DNA of 64,000 nt, taken from Hyalangium ruber (GTDB lineage Bacteria; Myxococcota; Myxococcia; Myxococcales; Myxococcaceae). Position 1 is the first letter of the stretch. Every line of letters begins with the position of its first letter. Positions 26,948-62,765 of the stretch are shown piece after piece. A program made the translations under genes and the position numbers. Under the pieces are notes generated by a model. The model was not told the origin of the DNA, did no database searches, and was given only the letters and a program-made list of their open reading frames with translations. The stretch lies in contig NZ_JAXIVS010000014.1 of NCBI RefSeq assembly GCF_034259325.1, forward strand, positions 62,001-126,000, given 5' to 3'.

Positions 26948-26956
26948 TGTGGATAA
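26948..26956 (+). promoter_or_regulatory. DnaA box (perfect TGTGGATAA) at rsmG start
   Basis: A second exact DnaA-box match in the same orientation as the one at 26875-26883. It overlaps the GTG start codon of rsmG, so DnaA bound here would sit on the translation start region of the DNA. Two perfect 9-mers within 82 nt are unlikely by chance in a 70% GC genome. Confidence 0.55.
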
Positions 26957-27602
26957 AGTACGCTTCTCCGATCAGCTCCAACAGGGGTGTCTCACGCTCG
27001 GTGTGAGTGTCGCCGAGGACGTCCCTCCTCGCCTCCACCAGCTCATGAATGAGCTGCTGAAGTGGAACGCGAAGGTAAATCTTACCGCCATCACCGCGCC
27101 CGAAGAGGTGCTCGAAAAGCACTTCCTCGACTCGCTCGCCGTGCTGCCCGAAGTGGAGGGCGCGGCCTCCCTCCTGGACCTCGGCGCCGGCGCCGGTTTC
27201 CCCGGTTTGCCGCTCAAGCTGGCGCGGCCTTCGCTCGCCATCACCCTGGTCGATGCGGTGAGCAAGAAGGTTGGTTTCATCAAGGCCGCCGTTGCCGCGC
27301 TCGGGTTGAAGGAGTCCCGCGGACTTCACGCTCGCGCCGAGGGTCAGCCCGAGGTGGAGGGCATTCCCCGCGCCGAGCTGCTCATCGCCCGCGCGTTCAT
27401 GGATCTGCCCGACTGGCTCGACCTCGCGCCCGCGTACGTGCTGCCCGGTGGGCGCGTGGTCGCCATGCTCGGCAAGGCCCAGCCCGACTCGGAGCTCCAC
27501 GCTCGCGCCGCCGAGCGGAACCTGCGCCTCGTGTCCGCGCGCCAGTACCGGCTGCCGTTCTCCGGCGCCGAGCGCCAGGTGGCCGTTTTCACGAAGGTTT
27601 GA
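26949..27602 (+). CDS. rsmG: 16S rRNA (guanine527-N7)-methyltransferase RsmG
   Basis: A 217-residue SAM-dependent methyltransferase (GidB) that methylates G527 of 16S rRNA. It has the family N-terminal helices (LHQLMNELLKWNAKVNLTAI), the SAM-binding motif LLDLGAGAGFPGLPLKLA and the following ALVDAVSKK-type acidic loop (TLVDAVSKKVGF). GTG 26949 has GGAGG 5 nt upstream. In other bacteria it is often upstream of parAB; here parA is 3.7 kb away because a repeat array, a lipoprotein, a kinase and the parS cluster intervene. Confidence 0.95.
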   Translation: MDKVRFSDQLQQGCLTLGVSVAEDVPPRLHQLMNELLKWNAKVNLTAITAPEEVLEKHFLDSLAVLPEVEGAASLLDLGAGAGFPGLPLKLARPSLAITLVDAVSKKVGFIKAAVAALGLKESRGLHARAEGQPEVEGIPRAELLIARAFMDLPDWLDLAPAYVLPGGRVVAMLGKAQPDSELHARAAERNLRLVSARQYRLPFSGAERQVAVFTKV

Positions 27603-27636
27603 GCCCGGAGGCCCGCCTCGGGGCGCGCTTGCCGCG

Positions 27637-27841
27637 AACCTGTCTGGTTGTCAGACAGGTTTGCCCGGAAGCCCGGCCTGGGGTGCGCTTTCGTGAACCT
27701 GTCTGGTTGTCAGACAGGTTTGCCTGGAGGCCTGGCCCTGGGGCGCGGTTCCCACGAACCTGTCTGGTTGTCAGACAGGTTTGCCTGGAGGCCCGGTCCG
27801 GGGCGCGCTTCCCATGAACCTGTCTGGTTGTCAGACAGGTT
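27637..27841 (+). repeat. Array 1 of identical 25-bp hairpins (four copies, ~60-bp period)
   Basis: Four identical 25-bp elements occur at 27637-27661, 27696-27720, 27757-27781 and 27817-27841. Each has 10-bp arms (AACCTGTCTG and CAGACAGGTT) around a 5-nt loop, GTTGT on the + strand. The 34-36-nt sequences between them are similar but not identical, so the array is a degenerate tandem repeat of about 60 bp. It fills most of the 303-nt gap between rsmG and the convergent lipoprotein gene; no gene is visible. The same element occurs inverted at 54556-54740. A terminator or RNA-processing role after rsmG is inferred from orientation and position. Confidence 0.9.
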
Positions 27842-27905
27842 TGCCTGACTCGCCTGGCCTCGGGCGGTACTGCCTCTTGGGTGGCCTATGTCCGGTCGTG
27901 GCGGC

Positions 27906-30264: not shown

Positions 30265-30278
30265 GTTCCACGTGGAAC
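30265..30278. promoter_or_regulatory. parS site 1
   Basis: Exact palindrome GTTCCACGTGGAAC, flanked by T on the left. It is the copy nearest to the zinc-ribbon kinase, 97 nt from its start codon. Confidence 0.92.
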
Positions 30279-30380
30279 GTCACGGGGCGGCCTGGTGCGT
30301 GGGGCGCGGGGCGGCGGTCCTTATATAGGTGTGGACGGCGATGGACTCCGGCGGGTGTTGGCGCGCGCGGAGACTGCCCT

Positions 30381-30394
30381 GTTCCACGTGGAAC
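30381..30394. promoter_or_regulatory. parS site 2
   Basis: Exact 14-bp parS palindrome, 116 nt from site 1. It is the first copy in the regularly repeated part of the array. Confidence 0.92.
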
Positions 30395-30493
30395 GTCCGC
30401 GCGTGGGCGGGCGGGAGGATGGGGCTCGCGAGGTGCTCGCTGCCACGGGTCGGGCGTGCTCGGCGTGAGGCGCTGGCTTTGAGGGGCGGGCGT

Positions 30494-30507
30494 GTTCCAC
30501 GTGGAAC
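30494..30507. promoter_or_regulatory. parS site 3
   Basis: Exact 14-bp parS palindrome, 113 nt from site 2, followed by the recurring GTCCGCGCG flank. Confidence 0.92.
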
Positions 30508-30602
30508 GTCCGCGCGCGTGAGAGGGCGGGAGGATGGGCAGCGCGAGGTGTCCTCTGCCACGGGTCGGGCGTGCTCGTCTTGAGGGCTCAGGGGGCGGGT
30601 AT

Positions 30603-30616
30603 GTTCCACGTGGAAC
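30603..30616. promoter_or_regulatory. parS site 4
   Basis: Exact 14-bp parS palindrome, 109 nt from site 3, with the same right flank as sites 2 and 3. Confidence 0.92.
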
Positions 30617-30709
30617 GTCCGCGCGTGGGAGGGCGGGAGGATGGTGCTTGCGAGGTGCTCGCTGCCACGGGTCGGGCGTGCTCGGCGTGAGGGCTCAGGG
30701 GGCGGGCAT

Positions 30710-30723
30710 GTTCCACGTGGAAC
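30710..30723. promoter_or_regulatory. parS site 5
   Basis: Exact 14-bp parS palindrome, 107 nt from site 4, within the tandem repeat. Confidence 0.92.
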
Positions 30724-30813
30724 GTCCGCGCGCGCGAGGGTTGGAGCATGGGCCGCGAGGTGTGCTCTGCCACGTGTCGAGCGTGCTCATCAAGAGGGCT
30801 CCGGGGCGGCCCT

Positions 30814-30827
30814 GTTCCACGTGGAAC
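30814..30827. promoter_or_regulatory. parS site 6
   Basis: Exact 14-bp parS palindrome, 104 nt from site 5; the repeat unit to its left is slightly shortened. Confidence 0.92.
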
Positions 30828-30925
30828 GTCCGCGCGCGGGAGAGCTGGAGGATAGGCCGCGCGAGGTGCTCGCTGCCACGTGTCGGGCGTGCTCGTCGTG
30901 AGGCGCTGGCTTTGGGCGTGGGCGT

Positions 30926-30939
30926 GTTCCACGTGGAAC
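30926..30939. promoter_or_regulatory. parS site 7
   Basis: Exact 14-bp parS palindrome, 112 nt from site 6. It is the last copy with the regular spacing. Confidence 0.92.
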
Positions 30940-30963
30940 GTCCCCGCTCAAGGGCCGCGCCCT

Positions 30964-30977
30964 GTTCCACGTGGAAC
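30964..30977. promoter_or_regulatory. parS site 8
   Basis: Exact 14-bp parS palindrome only 38 nt from site 7, the closest pair in the array. Confidence 0.92.
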
Positions 30978-31040
30978 GTCCGTCCGTGGAGGACTCGCGG
31001 ATGGGCGCCAGGGGATGTTCGCTCTCCCTGGGCCGGACCT

Positions 31041-31054
31041 GTTCCACGTGGAAC
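31041..31054. promoter_or_regulatory. parS site 9
   Basis: Exact 14-bp parS palindrome, 77 nt from site 8. Its flanks differ from those of the tandem part (right flank GACCGCCC). Confidence 0.92.
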
Positions 31055-31151
31055 GACCGCCCGGATGGGGTGGCGCATGGGCGCGTGGAGGGCCTCTCCC
31101 CGGGACCGGTTTCGGCCCCTCCCGGCGCGGCCCGCTTCATGGGCCAGGGCT

Positions 31152-31165
31152 GTTCCACGTGGAAC
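31152..31165. promoter_or_regulatory. parS site 10
   Basis: Exact parS copy with T on the left and A on the right, giving the full 16-bp palindrome. It lies 156 nt before the parA start and may be close enough for ParB to affect the parAB promoter. Confidence 0.92.
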
Positions 31166-31321: not shown

Positions 31322-32113
31322 GTGGGTCGAATCATCTGCATCTCCAACCAGAAGGGCGGCGTCGGCAAGACCACCACCGCCATCAACCTGGCGGCCAGCC
31401 TCGCCTCCGCCGAGCGCCGCACGCTCCTGGTCGACATGGACCCCCAGGGCAACGCCGGCAGCGGCCTGGGGCTCAAGCGCGACATGCTCCAGGGCACCGT
31501 CTATGAGGCGCTCCTCAATGGCCGCCCCATGAAGGAACTCGTTCACTCCACCGAGCTGCGCTACCTCCAAGTCGTCCCCGCCACCCCCGACCTCACCGGC
31601 GCCGAGGTGGAGCTCGTCAACCAGGAGCGCCGCGAGTTCCGCCTCCGCGACGCGCTGCGCCCCCTGGCCGCCGAGTACGACTACGTCCTCATCGACTGCC
31701 CCCCGTCGCTCGGCCTGCTCACGTTGAACTCGTTGGTGGCCGCCGACTCCGTCCTCATCCCCCTGCAGTGCGAGTACTACGCGCTCGAGGGTCTCTCGCA
31801 GCTCACGCACACCGTCGACCTCGTGCGCCAGGGGCTCAACAAGGACCTGAAGATGGAGGGCATCCTGCTCACCATGTTCGACTCGCGCGCCAACATCGCC
31901 AACCAGGTGGTGGACGAGGTCCGCGGCTACTTCAAGGACCAGGTCTTCGGCGTGGTTGTCCCCCGCAACGTGCGCCTCGCCGAGTGCCCCTCCTTCGGCA
32001 AGCCCATCCTCCTCTATGACATCAAGTCCAAGGGCTGCGAGAGCTACCTCGCCCTCGGCCGCGAAATCATGAACCGCGAGGGCAGGAAGCCGCCCGCGCG
32101 CCGGGTTGCTTGA
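31322..32113 (+). CDS. parA: Chromosome partitioning ATPase ParA
   Basis: A 263-residue Walker-type ATPase of the ParA/Soj family that drives movement of the ParB-parS complex during chromosome segregation. GTG 31322 gives the standard N terminus VGRIICISNQKGGVGKTTTA, with the deviant Walker A motif (KGGVGKTT) at residues 10-17. Walker A' (LLVDMDPQGNAGSGLG) and Walker B (YDYVLIDCPPSLGLLTLNS) are intact. AGAGG lies about 8 nt upstream of the GTG; longer in-frame extensions run into the parS array and are rejected. parB follows after 82 nt and bacM is third in the cluster. Confidence 0.97.
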   Translation: MGRIICISNQKGGVGKTTTAINLAASLASAERRTLLVDMDPQGNAGSGLGLKRDMLQGTVYEALLNGRPMKELVHSTELRYLQVVPATPDLTGAEVELVNQERREFRLRDALRPLAAEYDYVLIDCPPSLGLLTLNSLVAADSVLIPLQCEYYALEGLSQLTHTVDLVRQGLNKDLKMEGILLTMFDSRANIANQVVDEVRGYFKDQVFGVVVPRNVRLAECPSFGKPILLYDIKSKGCESYLALGREIMNREGRKPPARRVA

Positions 32114-32195
32114 TTCTCCTGGCCCGAAACCGCGAGCCTCCAATCCCCACCCTCCGCCCTCTCCTTCATAAGGAGAGGGGACCGGGAGACCCGAC

Positions 32196-33095
32196 GTGCT
32201 GAACAACGCAGCCGACAAACAGAAGCGAGCCCTGGGCCGAGGCCTCTCCGCCCTCATCCCCCAGGCGGGCCCCGCGCCCGTGGCCAACACCGTCGCCGCC
32301 GAGCCCCCGCCGCGCGCCGGCGTGCTCAAGCTCCCCATCGAGGCCATCCACCGAGACAACGCTCAGCCCCGCCGCTTCTTCGATGAGACGAAGCTCGCGG
32401 AGCTCGCCGAGTCCATCAAGGCCCAGGGCATCCTCCAGCCGGTGCTCGTCCGCAAGGATGGCGACGGCTACAAGCTGATTGCCGGTGAGCGCCGCTGGCG
32501 CGCCGCCCAGCTCGCCGGCCTCAAGGAAGTGCCCGCCCTGGTGAAGGAAGTCACCGAGGCGCAGTCCTTCGAGCTGGCCCTGGTGGAGAACCTCCAGCGC
32601 TCGGACCTCAACCCCATCGAAGAGGCCGAGGGCTACCACCGCCTCGCCAACGAGTTCGGCCTCACCCAGGAGCAGATCAGCCAGCGCGTGGGCAAGGAGC
32701 GCTCCACCGTCGCCAACGCCCTGCGCCTGCTGGCCCTGCCGGAGGACGTGAAGAACCTGGTGGCCGACGGCACCCTGAGCATGGGCCATGCGCGCGCCCT
32801 GCTCGGCGTGCCCCGTCTGCCCGAGTTGCAGCGACTGGCCGTTCAGGTCGCCGAACAGAAGCTCTCGGTGCGCGACACCGAGAAGCTGGTGCAGCAGAAG
32901 CGAACCCAGAAGAAGGAGGGCGGGCGTCCTGCCAAGCAGAGCGCCCAAGCCCGTGCCCTGGTCGAGGAGCTGCAGCGGCTCCTGGGCACCAAAGTGCGAC
33001 TCACGGAGAAGGGCCAGGGAAAAGGTACCCTGGAGGTGGACTTCTTCTCGTACGATGACCTCGACCGTCTCTTGAAGCTTCTCAGGAAGGAGTAG
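32196..33095 (+). CDS. parB: Chromosome partitioning CTPase ParB
   Basis: A 299-residue ParB/Spo0J that binds parS and spreads along DNA as a CTP-dependent clamp. The N-terminal ParA-activating peptide KRALGRGLSALIP is at residues 10-22. The CTP-binding domain contains the ARMS motif GERRWRAA (about residues 97-104) and the ENLQRSDLNP motif (about 128-137). The helix-turn-helix region follows (LTQEQISQRVGKERSTVAN), and the C-terminal dimerisation domain covers about 245-299. The start is GTG 32196, with GGGAG about 9 nt upstream. bacM starts 3 nt after the stop, which suggests coupling of the two genes. Its binding sites, ten parS, lie just upstream of parA. Confidence 0.97.
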   Translation: MLNNAADKQKRALGRGLSALIPQAGPAPVANTVAAEPPPRAGVLKLPIEAIHRDNAQPRRFFDETKLAELAESIKAQGILQPVLVRKDGDGYKLIAGERRWRAAQLAGLKEVPALVKEVTEAQSFELALVENLQRSDLNPIEEAEGYHRLANEFGLTQEQISQRVGKERSTVANALRLLALPEDVKNLVADGTLSMGHARALLGVPRLPELQRLAVQVAEQKLSVRDTEKLVQQKRTQKKEGGRPAKQSAQARALVEELQRLLGTKVRLTEKGQGKGTLEVDFFSYDDLDRLLKLLRKE

Positions 33096-37106: not shown

Positions 37107-39464
37107 ATGTCCACGCGCAAATCCCAGACTTCGCTGCCCCCGGTGCGCCCGGGCGAGCCGACGCGGCCCTCACAAACCTCCGTGCCCTCGGGCGAGCCGG
37201 CGCGGCCGTCTCAAACAGGACTTCCGTCGGTGCGTCCGCCGGGTGAGCCGATGCGGCCTTCTCAGGCAGGGCTGCCTTCGGTGCGTTTGGGCGAGCCGGC
37301 GCGGCCGTCTCAGACGGGGCTGCCTTCGGTGCGCTCGGGCGAGCCGGCGCGGCCGTCTCAGACGGGGCTGCCTTCGGTGCGCTCGGGTGAGCCGGCGCGG
37401 TCGTCTCAGACGGGGTTGCCTTCGGTGCGCTCGGGCGAGCCGGCGCGGCCGGCTCAGACGGGGATGCGGTCGGAGGAGGGGGCGCTGCTGTCGCGGCTGC
37501 TGGAGGCGCAGGCGGAGCTCGCCGCGCTCGCCGACAAGGGCGAGGTGGAGGAGGTGATGCGCCTCATCGCCACGCGTGGCCAGGAGTTGTCGGGCGCGGC
37601 GGGGGCGGCGTTGGGCGTCCTCGAGGACGGGGAGATTCTCTTCCGCGCGAGCACGGGCAGCCTTTTGCGCGCGGTGGGGGAGCGGCCGCGGATGGCCTCG
37701 GCTTCGAGCATGGGCGGCCAGATGGCCCAGGCGCGTCAAATCCTGCGCAGCGATGACACGGAGCTGGACGCTCGGGTGGACCGCGCCATGTGCCGGAAGC
37801 TGGGCGCACGCTCGCTGCTGGTGGCGCCGCTGCTGTGCGGGGAGCGGCTGTGCGCGGTGCTGTTCGTGCTGTCGCCTCGGCCCAGCGCGTTCGGCGAGGC
37901 GGAGGAGCGGCGGGTGGCCCTGCTGGCGCGCGTGGCGGGGCCGCCGCTGGCGCACGCGGAGTCGGCGCGCTCGGCGCTCGGGCGAGAGCAGGAGCTGCGC
38001 GTCATCAAGGAGATGCTGCGGCGGCGGGACGCGGAGCTGGAGGTGGCGCTCCAGGCCATGGACGCGGCGGCGTACGTGGTGGCCGAGGGCGGCACGGTGC
38101 GGGCCAACCGGAGCGCGCTGGAGCTGCTGGGGGAGAACAGCGCGCTGGCGCTCAAGGGGCACCCGGCGGCGCTGGCCGAGCGGCTGCTGCCGAGGCTTCC
38201 GGAGACGCAGGCGCGGGTGGGGCTGGAGGAGGATCCGCTGGCGCAGGCGCTCCGGGGACAGCCGAGCACACGCGAGCTGGTGGTGCGCCACGTGCGCCAC
38301 GGGACGGATGTGCTGGTGCGCAGCGCGGCCCTGCCGGTGCGGGTGGATGGGGCGGTGGTAGGCGCGGTGGTGGTGCAGACGGACGTGGAGGCGCGGCGCC
38401 AGACGGGGGCTCAGGCCGAGCAGTTCCTGGCGCTGGTGGAGCGCTCCTCCGAGTGCATGGCGATGACGAGCTTCACGGGGCGGCCGGTGTACCTCAACCC
38501 TGCGGGGCGGGCGCTGCTGGGCTTCGAGAGCCAGGAGGCGTTCCGCGCCAGCCCCGTGCTGGACATGTACCTGCCGGAGGACCGGGAGGCGGCGCGCCTG
38601 GCCTTCACCGAGGTCCGCGAGCAGGGCCACTGGGAGGGCAAGCTGCGGCTGCGCGAGCCGCGCACGGGCGCGGCGATTCCGGTCTGGCACCAGCTCTTCA
38701 CGCTGGTGGCCAAGGAGACGGGACGGCCGGTGGCGCTGGGCTCGGTGATTCGGGACCTGCGCGAGTCCCAGCGCGAGGAGGAGGTGCGCGAGCGGCTGAT
38801 GGACATCATCGGCAATGACTTGCGCACGCCGCTGTCGGCGATCGCGGTGGGGGCCTCGACGTTGCTGCGGCGCGGGGCGCTGTCGGAGGTGGATACGAAG
38901 GCGGCGGTGCGCATCGCCCAGAGCGCGGAGCGGATGGGACGGCTGGTGGGGCAGGTGCTGGACTTCACGCGGGCGTACCTGGGCGCGGGGCTGGTGCTGC
39001 TGCGCACGCGGGTGGACCTGGACGTGGTGGCGCAGGACGTGGTGGCGGCGGCGGAGCTGGAGCACCCGGACCGGTTGGTGCGCTACGCGAAGCGGGGCGA
39101 CTCGCGCGGGCTGTGGGACCGCGAGCGGCTGTCGGAGCTGTTGTCCACGCTGGTGCGGCACGCGCTGCTGGCCAGCCCCGTGGAGAAGGCGGTGGATGTG
39201 AGGCTGCGGGCGGAGGGCGAGGAGGTGCTGCTGGAGGTGCATCGCGCCGGGGCGCCGATTCCGCCCGAGGTGCTGCCTCGGTTGTTCGATGCGTTCCGTC
39301 CTCCTATCGCGGACGACGCGGGCCACGAGCACGAGGGGCTGGGACTGTTCAGCACGCGGGCCATCGCGCGGGCACACGGGGGCGAGGTGGAGGTGCGCTC
39401 GAGCGCGGCGGAGGGCACGACGTTCCGGGTGCGGCTGCCGCGAGGGCCCTCGGCGGAGCGGTGA
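37107..39464 (+). CDS. Degenerate PAS/GAF sensor histidine kinase lacking the phospho-acceptor
   Basis: A 785-residue protein with the layout of a soluble sensor kinase. Residues 5-125 are low-complexity repeats of about 16 residues (consensus RPSQTGLPSVRSGEPA, six to seven copies), encoded by ~48-bp DNA repeats. A GAF domain (about 150-300), a coiled coil, two PAS domains (about 315-420 and 435-560), then HisKA and HATPase domains follow. The HisKA motif reads GNDLRTPLSA with Asn570 in place of the His. In the ATPase part the N box is STLVRHAL and the G1 motif is HRAGAPIP (Arg713 where Asp is expected); only GLGLFSTRAIARAHGG looks normal. I infer a pseudokinase that signals by binding. ATG 37107 is preferred. 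Confidence 0.85.
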   Translation: MSTRKSQTSLPPVRPGEPTRPSQTSVPSGEPARPSQTGLPSVRPPGEPMRPSQAGLPSVRLGEPARPSQTGLPSVRSGEPARPSQTGLPSVRSGEPARSSQTGLPSVRSGEPARPAQTGMRSEEGALLSRLLEAQAELAALADKGEVEEVMRLIATRGQELSGAAGAALGVLEDGEILFRASTGSLLRAVGERPRMASASSMGGQMAQARQILRSDDTELDARVDRAMCRKLGARSLLVAPLLCGERLCAVLFVLSPRPSAFGEAEERRVALLARVAGPPLAHAESARSALGREQELRVIKEMLRRRDAELEVALQAMDAAAYVVAEGGTVRANRSALELLGENSALALKGHPAALAERLLPRLPETQARVGLEEDPLAQALRGQPSTRELVVRHVRHGTDVLVRSAALPVRVDGAVVGAVVVQTDVEARRQTGAQAEQFLALVERSSECMAMTSFTGRPVYLNPAGRALLGFESQEAFRASPVLDMYLPEDREAARLAFTEVREQGHWEGKLRLREPRTGAAIPVWHQLFTLVAKETGRPVALGSVIRDLRESQREEEVRERLMDIIGNDLRTPLSAIAVGASTLLRRGALSEVDTKAAVRIAQSAERMGRLVGQVLDFTRAYLGAGLVLLRTRVDLDVVAQDVVAAAELEHPDRLVRYAKRGDSRGLWDRERLSELLSTLVRHALLASPVEKAVDVRLRAEGEEVLLEVHRAGAPIPPEVLPRLFDAFRPPIADDAGHEHEGLGLFSTRAIARAHGGEVEVRSSAAEGTTFRVRLPRGPSAER

Positions 39465-52226: not shown

Positions 52227-52846
52227 CGCGGGCCCTCCGCGACAGGAACACCATGCTGGAGTTCCGGGGATGTCATCAGGATTACCGGCGCCAGGACAAC
52301 GAGCCCCGCGCCTGCGGAGACGACCACGAAGGTCACCCCTGCGATGATGATGACACTTCCCACCAGAAGGCCCGCCCGGTGGCGCTTCAACCAGTCGATG
52401 GCCCCGTCCGTCGCCGTGAACTCCTGAGGGCGGAGCCGCTCCAACTCCAGACAGTCGTCATAGGCCTGTTGGCACTCTCCTCGGCAGAACTCGGATTTCC
52501 CGCCCCGCTTGCGTGGAGAGGTGAAACCCCCGTACCCAGGAGGAAGCGGGCGATCCATGCATTTGCGGTAACAGTCCTGGTTCTCCTGGTCACAATCCCT
52601 CGGCCGAGCTGTTACAGGCACGAACTGACCTACCTGGCTGTCGGGGTGGAGCTGGTAGGCGGAGAGTTCAAAGCTTTCGACGGGGTGCCACACGTGGGTG
52701 AGCTGGCCGTCCGGGTGCTCTTGGAGGATGAGCACGAATCGGGAAGGGCTGTCGAGGCTCGTTGAGGACAGGGAGACATGGCGGGTGGCGCTACACGAGG
52801 CGAGCAGTGCGCTCACGGTCGCCGCCACGAACTTCTGGAGCGTCAT
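52223..52846 (-). CDS. Toxin-delivery-type lipoprotein, apparently without a toxin domain
   Basis: A 207-residue lipoprotein. The signal MTLQKFVAATVSALLASC ends in a lipobox Cys18. The middle has a Cys pattern, CDQENQDCYRKC and CRGECQQAYDDC, with spacings C-X6-C-X3-C and C-X3-C-X6-C, separated by a Gly/Pro/Lys-rich loop. A hydrophobic stretch (LLVGSVIIIAGVTFVVVSAG and onwards, about residues 162-190) could span a membrane. The protein then ends within about 20 residues. Larger relatives, as I recall them, carry a toxin domain after this point, so this one may be truncated or a delivery-only form. ATG 52846 has GAGGA about 8 nt upstream. It overlaps the partner gene. Confidence 0.65.
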   Translation of the reverse strand: MTLQKFVAATVSALLASCSATRHVSLSSTSLDSPSRFVLILQEHPDGQLTHVWHPVESFELSAYQLHPDSQVGQFVPVTARPRDCDQENQDCYRKCMDRPLPPGYGGFTSPRKRGGKSEFCRGECQQAYDDCLELERLRPQEFTATDGAIDWLKRHRAGLLVGSVIIIAGVTFVVVSAGAGLVVLAPVILMTSPELQHGVPVAEGPR

Positions 52847-52990: not shown

Positions 52991-54487
52991 ATGCATCCGA
53001 CGGGCCTGGAGGCGGGCACGCAGGTGGAGGACTGGCGGCTGCTGGGAAGGCACGAGGCAGGCAGCTTCGGGGTGGTGTACCTGGCGGTGCGGGTGGGCGC
53101 GGAGGCAGCCGGTCCCTGCGCGCTGAAGCTGGCCCGAGCCCGGGGAGACGCGCGACTGAGCCGGGAGGTGGGGCTGCTGGGGCGGGTACGGCATCCGAAC
53201 GTGCCTCGGCTCCAGGGACACGGCGAGTGGTACGGCTTTCCGTACGTGGTCACGGAATGGGTGGAAGGGGTGTCCCTGTCGAGGTGGACGCGGCTGTGCA
53301 ACCCCTCGGGACGGCAGGTGACGCGGCTGCTGGCGAAGCTCGCGGGAGCGCTGGCGGCGGTACACGCGGTGGGCGGAGCGCACCGGGACATCAAGAGCGA
53401 GAACGTGTTGGTGCGCCTGGAAGACGGCGAGCCGATGCTGACGGACTTCGGAGCAGGCACCTGGGAGGGAGCCGCCCCGCTGACGGTGAACGGCCCTCCG
53501 GGGACGCCGCTGTACTACAGCCCGGAGCGGCTGCGCGCGCACCTGAACCTGCTCCCCCCGGGAGCACCCAGTGGCGCCGGACCGGCCGATGACGTGTATG
53601 GCCTGGGAGTAACGGCCTTCCGGCTGCTGACGGACACCTACCCCTTCACGGAGCTGGAAGAGGAGCAACGGACGCAGGAGCGGCTACGGGGTCGGCTGCC
53701 ACGAGCACCGCACGAGGTGAACCCGGGAGTGCCAGTGGAGCTGAGCGCATGGGTGATGCGACTGCTGGCGGCGCGCCCCGAGGAACGCCCATCCATGTGG
53801 CAGGTAGCGGAAGCATTGTCGAAGGCACAGGAGAACACCCCGGAGCAGCCGCTCTTCGCCTGGGAGACGGACCCCGAGCGGTTGGGCCCGGGGCGGCGGC
53901 TGGCTTCCCGGATGGAGTACGAGCTGTTGCTGGTGCGAGCGCGGGCGGAGGAGAACCAGGCACGGGTGGCCGCTGAAATCGAGCGAGCCCAGGCGGAGCG
54001 GGAAGCACCGCCACCCTCCGAGCCCGAGTCACTGTCGCCCCCACACCCCAAGGAGCGCAAGGCGCGGTCTCGCCGTGCCCGTGCGCAGCAGTCGTGGCTC
54101 GCGGCGGTGGGGCTCGTCGTCCTCGCCCTCGGTGTGTGGTGGTCATCGGAGGTGCCGTCGCCAGCGCCAGCCGACGACAAGAGGGATGCGGGGACGGTGG
54201 GCCTGGGTGACACGCCACTTCCTGCTCCCTCGCGGGCGGTGTCGTCCGAGTCAGAGCGAAGCGGCATGGGCCTCGACATGCCGATGAAGCCGCTTCCCGG
54301 CCAGCGCGGGCCGCCCTGTCGGAAGCCTGCGGTCGAGATCTACGGTGGGTGTTGGGTCGCGATAGAGGAACAGTCCCCGCCGTGTAGTGACGATGCCTAC
54401 GCCTGGAAGAACCGCTGCTACTGGCCCATTCGAGGCCCCCAGAAACCCGCGACCTCGGACCTTCCCGAAAGCCCAGGCGAACGTTGA
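52991..54487 (+). CDS. Transmembrane serine/threonine protein kinase
   Basis: A 498-residue Hanks-type kinase. The domain spans about residues 12-275, with glycine loop LGRHEAGSFGVVYLA, ATP Lys in CALKLAR, catalytic loop HRDIKSENVL and DFGAG. A Glu/Ala-rich segment (about 300-355, partly coiled coil) and a basic patch precede a membrane span (SWLAAVGLVVLALGVWW, about 364-380). The outer C terminus has a short four-Cys domain (PCRKPAVEIYGGCWV and PCSDDAYAWKNRCYWPI), a tail seen on other myxobacterial kinases. ATG 52991 has GAGGAGGTG about 10 nt upstream; an in-frame ATG at 52949 is possible. Hairpin array 2 follows its stop. Confidence 0.88.
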   Translation: MHPTGLEAGTQVEDWRLLGRHEAGSFGVVYLAVRVGAEAAGPCALKLARARGDARLSREVGLLGRVRHPNVPRLQGHGEWYGFPYVVTEWVEGVSLSRWTRLCNPSGRQVTRLLAKLAGALAAVHAVGGAHRDIKSENVLVRLEDGEPMLTDFGAGTWEGAAPLTVNGPPGTPLYYSPERLRAHLNLLPPGAPSGAGPADDVYGLGVTAFRLLTDTYPFTELEEEQRTQERLRGRLPRAPHEVNPGVPVELSAWVMRLLAARPEERPSMWQVAEALSKAQENTPEQPLFAWETDPERLGPGRRLASRMEYELLLVRARAEENQARVAAEIERAQAEREAPPPSEPESLSPPHPKERKARSRRARAQQSWLAAVGLVVLALGVWWSSEVPSPAPADDKRDAGTVGLGDTPLPAPSRAVSSESERSGMGLDMPMKPLPGQRGPPCRKPAVEIYGGCWVAIEEQSPPCSDDAYAWKNRCYWPIRGPQKPATSDLPESPGER

Positions 54488-54555
54488 GCGATGGCCTGAA
54501 CTATCGGGAAGGGAGGTCCCACCGGGATGCCCACGCGGGGCGGTCGGGCAAACAA

Positions 54556-54740
54556 AACCTGTCTGACAACCAGACAGGTTCGGCGGGAGTGCCATGGGGC
54601 GGCACCGCTCAAGGCCCACGACTGACGCCCGATAAAACCTGTCTGACAACCAGACAGGTTTGGCGGGAGCGCCATGGGGCGGCACCGCTCGAGGCCCCTG
54701 ACCGGTGCCCGATAAAACCTGTCTGACAACCAGACAGGTT
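54556..54740 (-). repeat. Array 2 of identical 25-bp hairpins (three copies, 80-bp period)
   Basis: The same 25-bp element as at 27637-27841 occurs in the opposite orientation at 54556-54580, 54636-54660 and 54716-54740, again without a mismatch. The period is exactly 80 bp, and the 55-nt flanks are nearly identical to each other but unrelated to those of array 1; a fourth flank without hairpin runs to about 54797. It lies in the 343-nt gap between a kinase gene and the convergent dioxygenase gene, where I see no gene. On the minus strand the hairpin is followed by TTT, so it could terminate the dioxygenase transcript. Confidence 0.9.
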
Positions 54741-54830
54741 CGGCGGGAGCGCCATGGGGCGGCACCGCTCGAGGCCCCTGACCGGTGCCTGACGCGGGTC
54801 GCCGGGAGGGCAGTGGCCGCGCGCCGGGCC

Positions 54831-55616
54831 CTACGCGTTGATGGCGACGGTAAGGGTCGCCACATAGCCACCGCTGACGCTGCCCGTGACGGTGGCCAGC
54901 TGCGAGTCCGAGCCATCGCTGAACACGTTGTCGTTGGACAGGGTGACCCGCTGCAGGTTGGTGACGCTGCTCTGGTAGCCGGTGGTGGCGTACACGGCGT
55001 CGCAGGCATCCTCGGGGAGGGCGAGCTGGGAGGTGGCCAGCTTGTTACCGGCGGAGGTGGCGGAGGCGAGGTTGGGGTAGACCTCGAAGTGGATGTGCGG
55101 CCAACGGCCCGAGTAGCAGGCGGGGAAGATGGTGGTGAAGGTCACCTGGCCATTGCTGTCGGTGGCCTGGACGCCGCGCAGGTAGTTCTGGTTGGTGACG
55201 CCGGAGGAGTAGAGCGAGTAGCGGCCCTCGCGGTCGCAGTGCCACAGGTAGACGGCATGGCCCGAGAGGGGCGTGCAGCCGTTCGAGCTGTCAACGAGCG
55301 TCAGGGTGACGGTCAGCGGGACACCCTCGGCGGTCCCGGTAGCAGAGCCGACGCTGGAGCGGATGTCGCTGCGAACGACGCCGCTCTGGGAGAGGACGTT
55401 GGGGCCGTTGGAGCCGTCACCGGGGTAGGGGCCGGCGGTCTCCTCGGGAATCCGGGAGCACGAACCGTCCCCGGGCTCGGAGGAATCGCCGTCGCAGTTG
55501 ATCAAGGGCAGGAGACTGGCGCCGAGGGCGAGGCGAAGCAGGTCTCTGCGCTCGAGGGAAGCACGGAACAGCTTCAAATCCTGGGCAAGACCGCCATCCT
55601 CATGTTCGTCGTGCAT
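54831..55616 (-). CDS. Intradiol ring-cleavage dioxygenase-like protein
   Basis: A 261-residue protein of the intradiol dioxygenase superfamily, whose members open catechol rings with Fe(III). The N terminus has a twin-arginine-like ERRDLLRLALGASLLPLINC, so export as a lipoprotein or Tat substrate is possible. The catalytic fold is marked by PEETAGPYPGDGS, GHAVYLWHCDREGRYSLY (Tyr and His ligands) and CYSGRWPHIHFEVY (the two remaining His). It is shorter than catechol dioxygenases and lacks their N-terminal linker domain. ATG 55616 has GAGAGAG about 6 nt upstream. Substrate unknown. Hairpin array 2 lies directly downstream. Confidence 0.85.
   Translation of the reverse strand: MHDEHEDGGLAQDLKLFRASLERRDLLRLALGASLLPLINCDGDSSEPGDGSCSRIPEETAGPYPGDGSNGPNVLSQSGVVRSDIRSSVGSATGTAEGVPLTVTLTLVDSSNGCTPLSGHAVYLWHCDREGRYSLYSSGVTNQNYLRGVQATDSNGQVTFTTIFPACYSGRWPHIHFEVYPNLASATSAGNKLATSQLALPEDACDAVYATTGYQSSVTNLQRVTLSNDNVFSDGSDSQLATVTGSVSGGYVATLTVAINA

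Positions 55617-61112: not shown

Positions 61113-62765
<1,653 letters not shown>

Follow-up and report, generated by a model that had tools for sequence, protein, structure and literature searches.

The window analysed here, a stretch of 64,000 nucleotides from Hyalangium ruber (NZ_JAXIVS010000014.1, positions 62,001 to 126,000), carries two arrays of a 25-bp palindrome. Array 2 contains AACCTGTCTGACAACCAGACAGGTT exactly at 54556-54580, 54636-54660 and 54716-54740, with a period of 80 bp, and array 1 consists of four copies of the reverse complement of AACCTGTCTGACAACCAGACAGGTT at 27637-27841, in steps of 59-61 bp. At up to three mismatches, the window holds seven palindrome matches, against a mean of 0.01 in shuffled sequence. 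The features concerned are as follows.

26949-27602, plus strand: RsmG/GidB gene, left neighbour of array 1 (PF02527, E 1.1e-38)
27603-27847, plus strand: array 1, about four tandem 60-bp units, 87% matches
27637-27661, plus strand: array 1, palindrome copy 1
27696-27720, plus strand: array 1, palindrome copy 2
27757-27781, plus strand: array 1, palindrome copy 3
27817-27841, plus strand: array 1, palindrome copy 4
52991-54487, plus strand: protein kinase domain gene, left neighbour of array 2 (PF00069, E 1.2e-27; alternative ATG at 52778 possible)
54554-54789, minus strand: array 2, 3.0 tandem 80-bp units by TRF, 94% matches
54556-54580, minus strand: array 2, palindrome copy 1, reading AACCTGTCTGGTTGTCAGACAGGTT on the minus strand
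54636-54660, minus strand: array 2, palindrome copy 2
54716-54740, minus strand: array 2, palindrome copy 3
54741-54756, minus strand: upstream box of array 2 copy 3 (CATGGCGCTCCCGCCG), p 0.0001, common to dispersed copies elsewhere in the genome
54831-55748, minus strand: intradiol dioxygenase domain gene, right neighbour of array 2 (PF00775, E 5.4e-11; start uncertain, 55505 in our own gene calls)

The first-pass annotation had described array 2 as three exact copies with an 80-bp period, inverted relative to array 1 and lodged in a convergent gap, and all of this is confirmed, the kinase-domain gene ending at 54487 (+) and the dioxygenase-domain gene at 54831 (-). The flanks of the two arrays, which had been thought to share nothing, do have an element in common: the 16 bases before the palindrome form a box (consensus approximately GGCGCTCCCGCCA) at six of the seven window copies (p<=0.015; p=0.42 at the seventh). 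The consensus was learned from 33 other places of the window's genome; of these, 26 still reach p<0.05 when withheld from the learning. The p values refer to a background of 20,000 random genomic 16-mers. Within array 2, boxes of the CATGGCGCTCCCGCCG type also stand at 54661-54676 and 54581-54596, the three-box p values being 0.0001, <0.0001 and 0.0004. Elsewhere in the window, ten exact GTTCCACGTGGAAC sites lie within about 900 bp (30265-31165), partly inside 107-bp tandem units, and directly precede genes for a ParA-type ATPase and a ParB domain protein (31322-33095), near rsmG. We take GTTCCACGTGGAAC to be the parS site of ParB, and the cluster is probably centromere-like and close to the origin. 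A further tandem repeat, with a 48 bp unit, 5.9 copies and 85% matches, occupies 37182-37467.

G000, the genome from which the window comes (10.77 Mb in 43 contigs), contains 40 places at no more than three mismatches from AACCTGTCTGNNNNNCAGACAGGTT and none that match the reversed-pattern control. The genome-wide count that the first-pass annotation had asked for gives 37-40 places and not just two arrays. The palindromes behave as the recurrent extragenic unit that had been suspected, 34 of 35 loci lying outside called genes in a genome whose non-coding share of bases is 12%. By our own gene caller, on which the gap classes rest, convergent gaps hold 14 of 34 loci and 16% of the intergenic bases (p=3.6e-4), while divergent gaps hold 5 of 34 (p=0.012), fewer than expected; the caller misses some genes, because some long gaps are left in its calls. 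A fixed sense of the palindrome relative to the incoming gene, also part of the original description, was not borne out, since its strand shows no preference at co-directional loci (seven same, eight opposite).

The core of the palindrome is AACCT-GTCNGAC-W-GTCNGAC-AGGTT (25 bp). Its stable stem of 10 pairs with a 5-nt loop, its placement in convergent gaps and the TTT or TTTT at the 3' edge of the stem in window copies are all features of intrinsic terminators, which could serve convergent genes in both directions and have been multiplied by tandem duplication. However, no terminator-like sites were called at 54300-55000, many copies precede gene starts, and the main subfamily of G086 (10,260,756 bp) has TTCG after the palindrome and no T tract. 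The arms themselves are often imperfect: pair 9/17, formed by the N, is mismatched (CC or GG) in 45 of 100 sites of G070 (10,080,619 bp) and in 18 of 40 sites of G000, and 25 of these 40 carry one to three mismatched arm pairs. Such frequent mismatching of the N across the arms is what a free-centred protein site would show, and not what a selected RNA stem would. Termination as the main function was rejected on these grounds, and this explanation retains hardly any weight. By the same token, the hairpin does not hold up as a conserved feature of RNA 3' ends, pair 9/17 being often mismatched and the swapping of flanks leaving the folding no worse. An outer inverted repeat around the palindrome (GGCGCT...AGCGCC) was dropped as a candidate, 42 of 100 flank re-pairings between loci being at least as stable. 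The window yields no Rfam matches at gathering thresholds.

In 20 chosen 20-kb regions of G070, arrays reach 12 copies in steps of mostly 66-74 bp, and the 25-bp core is kept as the spacers of about 45 bp diverge. Array steps overall are mostly 60-80 bp, with a range of 36-153 bp among those seen. Two G070 stretches (L199, 10530-10750; L186, 10777-10854) have palindromes only 36-53 bp apart, some of them opposed, within larger arrays; these are composite, BIME-like arrangements.

To follow the palindrome across the family, 96 Myxococcaceae genomes were surveyed with the looser core AACCTGTCNGNNNNNCNGACAGGTT at no more than one mismatch. It is present in 24 of them, with a maximum of 234 copies in G070, and with 37 in G000 and 33 in G003. 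By genus, it occurs in 16/16 genomes of g26 (4 to 234 copies), 4/7 of g15 (5 to 56), 1/27 of g23 and 1/6 of g8. A separate contig search returned 48 matching stretches, six of them in the family (Archangium sp. SZUA-606, four; Myxococcaceae Zod_Metabat.575, two) and 42 scattered over other taxa; the exact palindrome was absent from the viral contigs searched.

At three loci of G000 (L108, L126 and L129), homology around the copies extends for about 1.2 kb, and it goes further at several G086 loci. The 1.2-kb dispersed repeats encode a FadR-like GntR protein, whose DNA-binding domain is recognized above cut-off (PF00392, E 1.4e-16) and whose FCD match lies below it (E 0.0016; 19.3 bits, Pfam cut-off 24.3). 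The nearest solved chains are PdhR and FadR, the phmmer matches lying mostly over the N-terminal part; no NCBIfam model matches at its cut-off, and a catalytic domain is absent from the Pfam matches. Across 13 selected pairs, dN/dS is 0.09-0.30 over the conserved domain and 0.36-0.85 over a low-complexity tail, substitution ratios that indicate purifying selection on the protein. At E<=1e-20, the gene is found in 27 of the 96 genomes, in 1 to at least 29 copies each (at least 29 in G086) and at least 181 in all. The phage and plasmid collections gave no match to the protein at 1e-10, nor did six family loci from a DNA search contain the gene at the same threshold.

Before a second palindrome type was counted, five gene carriers had no palindrome, namely, G060, G061, G062 and G007, all of genus g8, and G012. 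A second arm type, AACTGGTCCGA...TCGGACCAGTT, adjoins the genes of G061 and G007 and one gene of G070, and the corresponding palindrome is AACTGGTC. That this TGG type would be dispersed in g8 was written down before counting and was borne out in five of six genomes, with 17-66 copies each, although G061, G007 and G070 had been the source of the clue and are hence not independent of it. The type is present in 14 of the 96 genomes (49 copies in G060, 42 in G061, 26 in G062, 66 in G007, 2 in G012 and 120 in G087). Taken together, one or both types occur in 27/27 gene carriers and neither in 66/69 non-carriers (Fisher 7.6e-21, phylogeny ignored). The non-carriers with palindromes, G063, G030 and G027, have 3, 8 and 17 sites and no gene match. 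In genus g23, the single genome of 27 that has palindromes (G114) is also the one that carries the gene. Copy numbers of gene and palindrome rise together (rho 0.78 across all 30 positive genomes, 0.85 across the 16 of g26), the G086 gene count being capped at 29.

The palindrome sits at a fixed place by the gene, before its start in one genus and beyond the conserved domain in others. It lies 115-150 bp before the start in 10/10 G070 genes examined (12 found), at +822 in 15 and at +825 to +888 in 3 of the 18 intact G086 genes examined (of at least 29), at +819 to +873 in G003 (3/4) and at +991 to +1015 in G000 (3/3). Eight of the ten G070 genes examined stand tail-to-tail with a neighbour. 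A neighbour gene shared by the GntR copies was ruled out by the variety of these neighbours: apart from two short-chain-dehydrogenase-like proteins, no two of the 10 genes downstream and 9 genes upstream are related, Pfam having been run on eight of the neighbours. In G086, three truncated or broken GntR copies (L160, L161 and L162) still have the palindrome and share a long left flank; they are decaying copies of the gene-bearing unit.

According to PMC4333415, Arg35 and Arg45 of E. coli FadR contact two consecutive guanines and the half-sites are 5 nt apart; R35 and R45 are likewise named among the DNA contacts in PMC4259882, where the probe or primer site of fadL, AGCTGGTCCGACCTATA, contains CTGGTCCGAC. 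Covariation was scored in 104 of at least 181 genes, drawn from 21 genomes and excluding the truncated L160-L162, at the residue that follows the conserved Glu ahead of the HTH (residue 33, equivalent to FadR Arg35), and the position windows for each gene's own palindrome were set after the loci had been seen. Arginine occupies this position in 35/35 genes linked to a TGG-type palindrome, in 0/68 linked to the CTG type and in 0/1 linked to the TTG type, while the Arg45 equivalent is arginine in 104/104. Residue 33 is the sole perfectly sorting column of 234 (103 genes), and also within g26 alone (56 genes), followed by wing residue 66 and then residue 28. Three G089 genes, apparent exceptions at first, have a TGG-type palindrome at +777 when four mismatches are allowed; both palindrome types lie near the genes at L219, L279, L269 and L296. 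What speaks against the reading is that dispersed sites can differ in type from the genes of their genome: G089 has 46 CTG and 0 TGG dispersed sites (at most one mismatch), yet three of its four genes are of the R/TGG type, and G060 has 49 TGG sites, yet its one gene is of the Q/TTG type. On a quickly built tree of the C-terminal part, each of the two traits undergoes about six changes; the independent pairs on well-supported branches agree in 3/3 cases (p=0.25), too few for significance.

The likeness to FadR thus extends to the GntR winged helix-turn-helix, the Arg45 equivalent that is invariant in the genes examined, an Arg35 equivalent found in exactly those genes whose site has GG, with binding itself being predicted, and the 5-nt half-site spacing (TCNGA here; PMC4333415), and CTGGTCCGAC is common to the fadL site and the variant palindrome (PMC4259882). 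Unlike FadR, the myxobacterial protein is multi-copy and dispersed, its FCD match is below the Pfam cut-off, its sites overlap in pairs within the 25-bp palindrome, and the dispersed sites are enriched in convergent gaps and not in promoters.

Movement was examined at one orthologous locus of g26, the L192 array, the left flank of which could be traced at >=85% identity in 13 of 16 genomes, with both flanks recognized in 13/13. Palindromes number nine in G070, four each in G079 and G072, one each in G081 and G069, and two of TGG type in G068; the other seven genomes (G071, G073, G075, G076, G077, G078 and G082) have none, the place being taken in G077 by some 0.9 kb of different sequence. Because the state of this one locus varies among 13 species, from no copy through one to several and to copies of the other type, the units appear to move or amplify, and 0, 1, 4 or 9 copies at a single orthologous locus is what local amplification predicts. 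The proposal that the element was amplified separately is supported, for many sites. The empty gap in G071 measures 70 bp. The ends of the insertions and their direct repeats were judged by eye from 12 of the 13 sequences (L325 of G073 left out): in G081, a unit of about 205 bp lies between imperfect direct copies of GCCGTGAGGCTCAC (about 14 bp), and in G068 the unit lies between longer direct repeats of about 45 bp. A second locus was compared by coordinates only: the distance between the GntR gene and a proC-like gene (named by eye) is 0.5 kb in G070 but 1.9 kb in G080, with no GntR gene on the proC-like contig among the 9/9 genes listed in G069 or the 15/15 in G074. Of six short matches to the palindrome-proximal arm of the unit, five lie 61-121 bp before a GntR start, and two G070 matches sit between palindrome and start, which indicates that part of the region upstream of the gene is present in gene-less units. 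At rsmG, 13 relatives have no palindrome in the place of array 1; this locus is not a clean empty-site test, because the right-hand gene is not syntenic there, and no clean empty site was found for either array of the window.

REP-type repeats are common in bacteria, and to our knowledge their known dedicated partners are RAYT transposases. By analogy, the nearest kind of known system would be REP/BIME with RAYT, the partner here being a regulator. As with REP and RAYT in PMC2817692, the palindromes are short, extragenic, numerous and arranged in arrays, the partner gene has that palindrome on one side or on both, gene presence goes with site abundance, and protein and site coevolve; flanking repeats, coevolution and correlated presence are given there as the signs of such a partnership. 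The differences are that the partner is a FadR/GntR winged-helix regulator with no Pfam catalytic domain and that the palindrome consensus has neither GTAG nor CGTC directly at it, no such tag being seen by eye in the consensus of 35 G000, 21 G086 and 18 G003 copies. The REP-associated tyrosine transposase anticipated in the first-pass annotation was not found in the window's genome: among the 35 genomes searched, a set without G070 and G086, PF01797 has no match in G000 and four weak ones in G003. MITEs offer a second comparison, given a single-copy unit of about 200 bp with an empty site in relatives, an arm sequence common to a larger gene-bearing unit, and presence/absence polymorphism at one orthologous locus (7/13 genomes without palindrome). 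Unlike in MITEs, no transposase was found in the larger unit; possible further differences are that no terminal inverted repeats are defined and that the flanking direct repeats differ in length (about 14 bp in G081 and about 45 bp in G068, by eye, at one locus).

These likenesses raise the question of whether the palindromes are ordinary REP- or MITE-type repeats that owe their movement to a transposase not linked to them, with the GntR gene as a passenger in which a copy lies by chance. The palindromes resemble REP/BIME or MITE families in their size, in lying outside genes, in forming arrays and in being patchily distributed, and direct repeats do flank the insertion. A passenger, however, would hardly be expected to have palindromes with it in 27/27 carriers or a DNA-contact residue that tracks the arm sequence in 104/104 genes examined, and a search for the Y1 family gave no transposase match in G000. 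On balance, the passenger explanation is unlikely.

Dedicated proteins acting on dispersed sites are also known from chromosome organization, as in the MatP/matS and SlmA/SBS systems, and the FadR-like protein might accordingly be a nucleoid factor, with palindromes selected for position. A core strongly conserved beside diverging array spacers and a dedicated protein under purifying selection would agree with such a role. What speaks against it is that site number varies from 4 to 234 within one genus, in which the examined locus is also polymorphic, that the gene exists in 1 to at least 29 copies with varied neighbours, and that orientation to genes is random; a chromosome-organizing role is, on these grounds, quite improbable.

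The preferred reading, to which a probability of roughly three in four is assigned, is that the palindromes are FadR-type GntR operators, dispersed as gene-less copies of an apparently mobile unit of gene and palindrome and locally amplified. The sites, the gene linkage, the covariation, the empty and occupied locus states and the purifying selection are established at the level of sequence comparison. The 25-bp palindrome would be a double-stranded recognition site made of two operators that overlap, with GTCNGAC on either side of a common central W, and the multi-copy GntR gene with its palindrome would form the dispersed unit of about 1.1-1.6 kb. The window palindromes may then represent gene-less copies lodged in 3', mostly convergent, gaps, from which the arrays would arise by local tandem duplication. 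It is predicted that the protein binds the palindromes and probably regulates its own gene, and that the G000 copy (C2:859823-860524) would bind AACCTGTC palindromes and AACTGGTC less so; the gene-less units presumably derive from gene-bearing ones. The moving activity might be supplied by the host or an IS, which is a guess. Most likely, the arrays do not serve the cell and are selfish repeats doubling as regulator decoys.

A bolder version can be put forward as a speculation, more probably wrong than right. The unit would be a self-spreading element whose sole protein is transcription-factor-like: the FadR-type protein would pair, bridge or mark palindromes, host recombination or replication would copy the unit into 3' gaps, and site and reading head would switch together (CTG, TGG and TTG), founding separate families in one genome.

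Whichever version holds, a repeat family is tied here to a transcription-factor family by distribution, position and residue covariation, with no transposase found in the unit, which raises the question of how a DNA-binding protein can spread together with its operator when the pair has no transposase itself. If binding is confirmed, the system would provide a direct link between regulators and mobile repeats, as well as a set of naturally occurring switches in protein-operator specificity within the FadR fold. The case also cautions that perfect operators scattered over a myxobacterial genome are not necessarily the sign of a regulon. Repeats have been reported earlier from Myxococcus and Nannocystis. 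A search of titles and abstracts, with most subscription literature outside its reach, returned no description of this repeat family or of a GntR link, and the myxobacterial genus names looked for in the REP literature examined were not found.

Two observations on the sites near the genes are added. Most GntR genes have TGTCAGAC (e.g., L126, 8930) some 50 bp ahead of their ATG, a half-site like that of the palindrome, which is missing from the four g8 genes and L241. It is replaced by TGTCAGCC in G114 and most G086 copies and by TGTCAGAG in L234 and L236, and in G000 it forms the left end of the 1.2-kb repeat. At L229 (G060:C1:450000-464000), a third palindrome type, AACTTGTCCAAC...GTTGGACAAGTT, lies on both sides of the GntR gene (-194 and +807) and is linked to Gln at residue 33.
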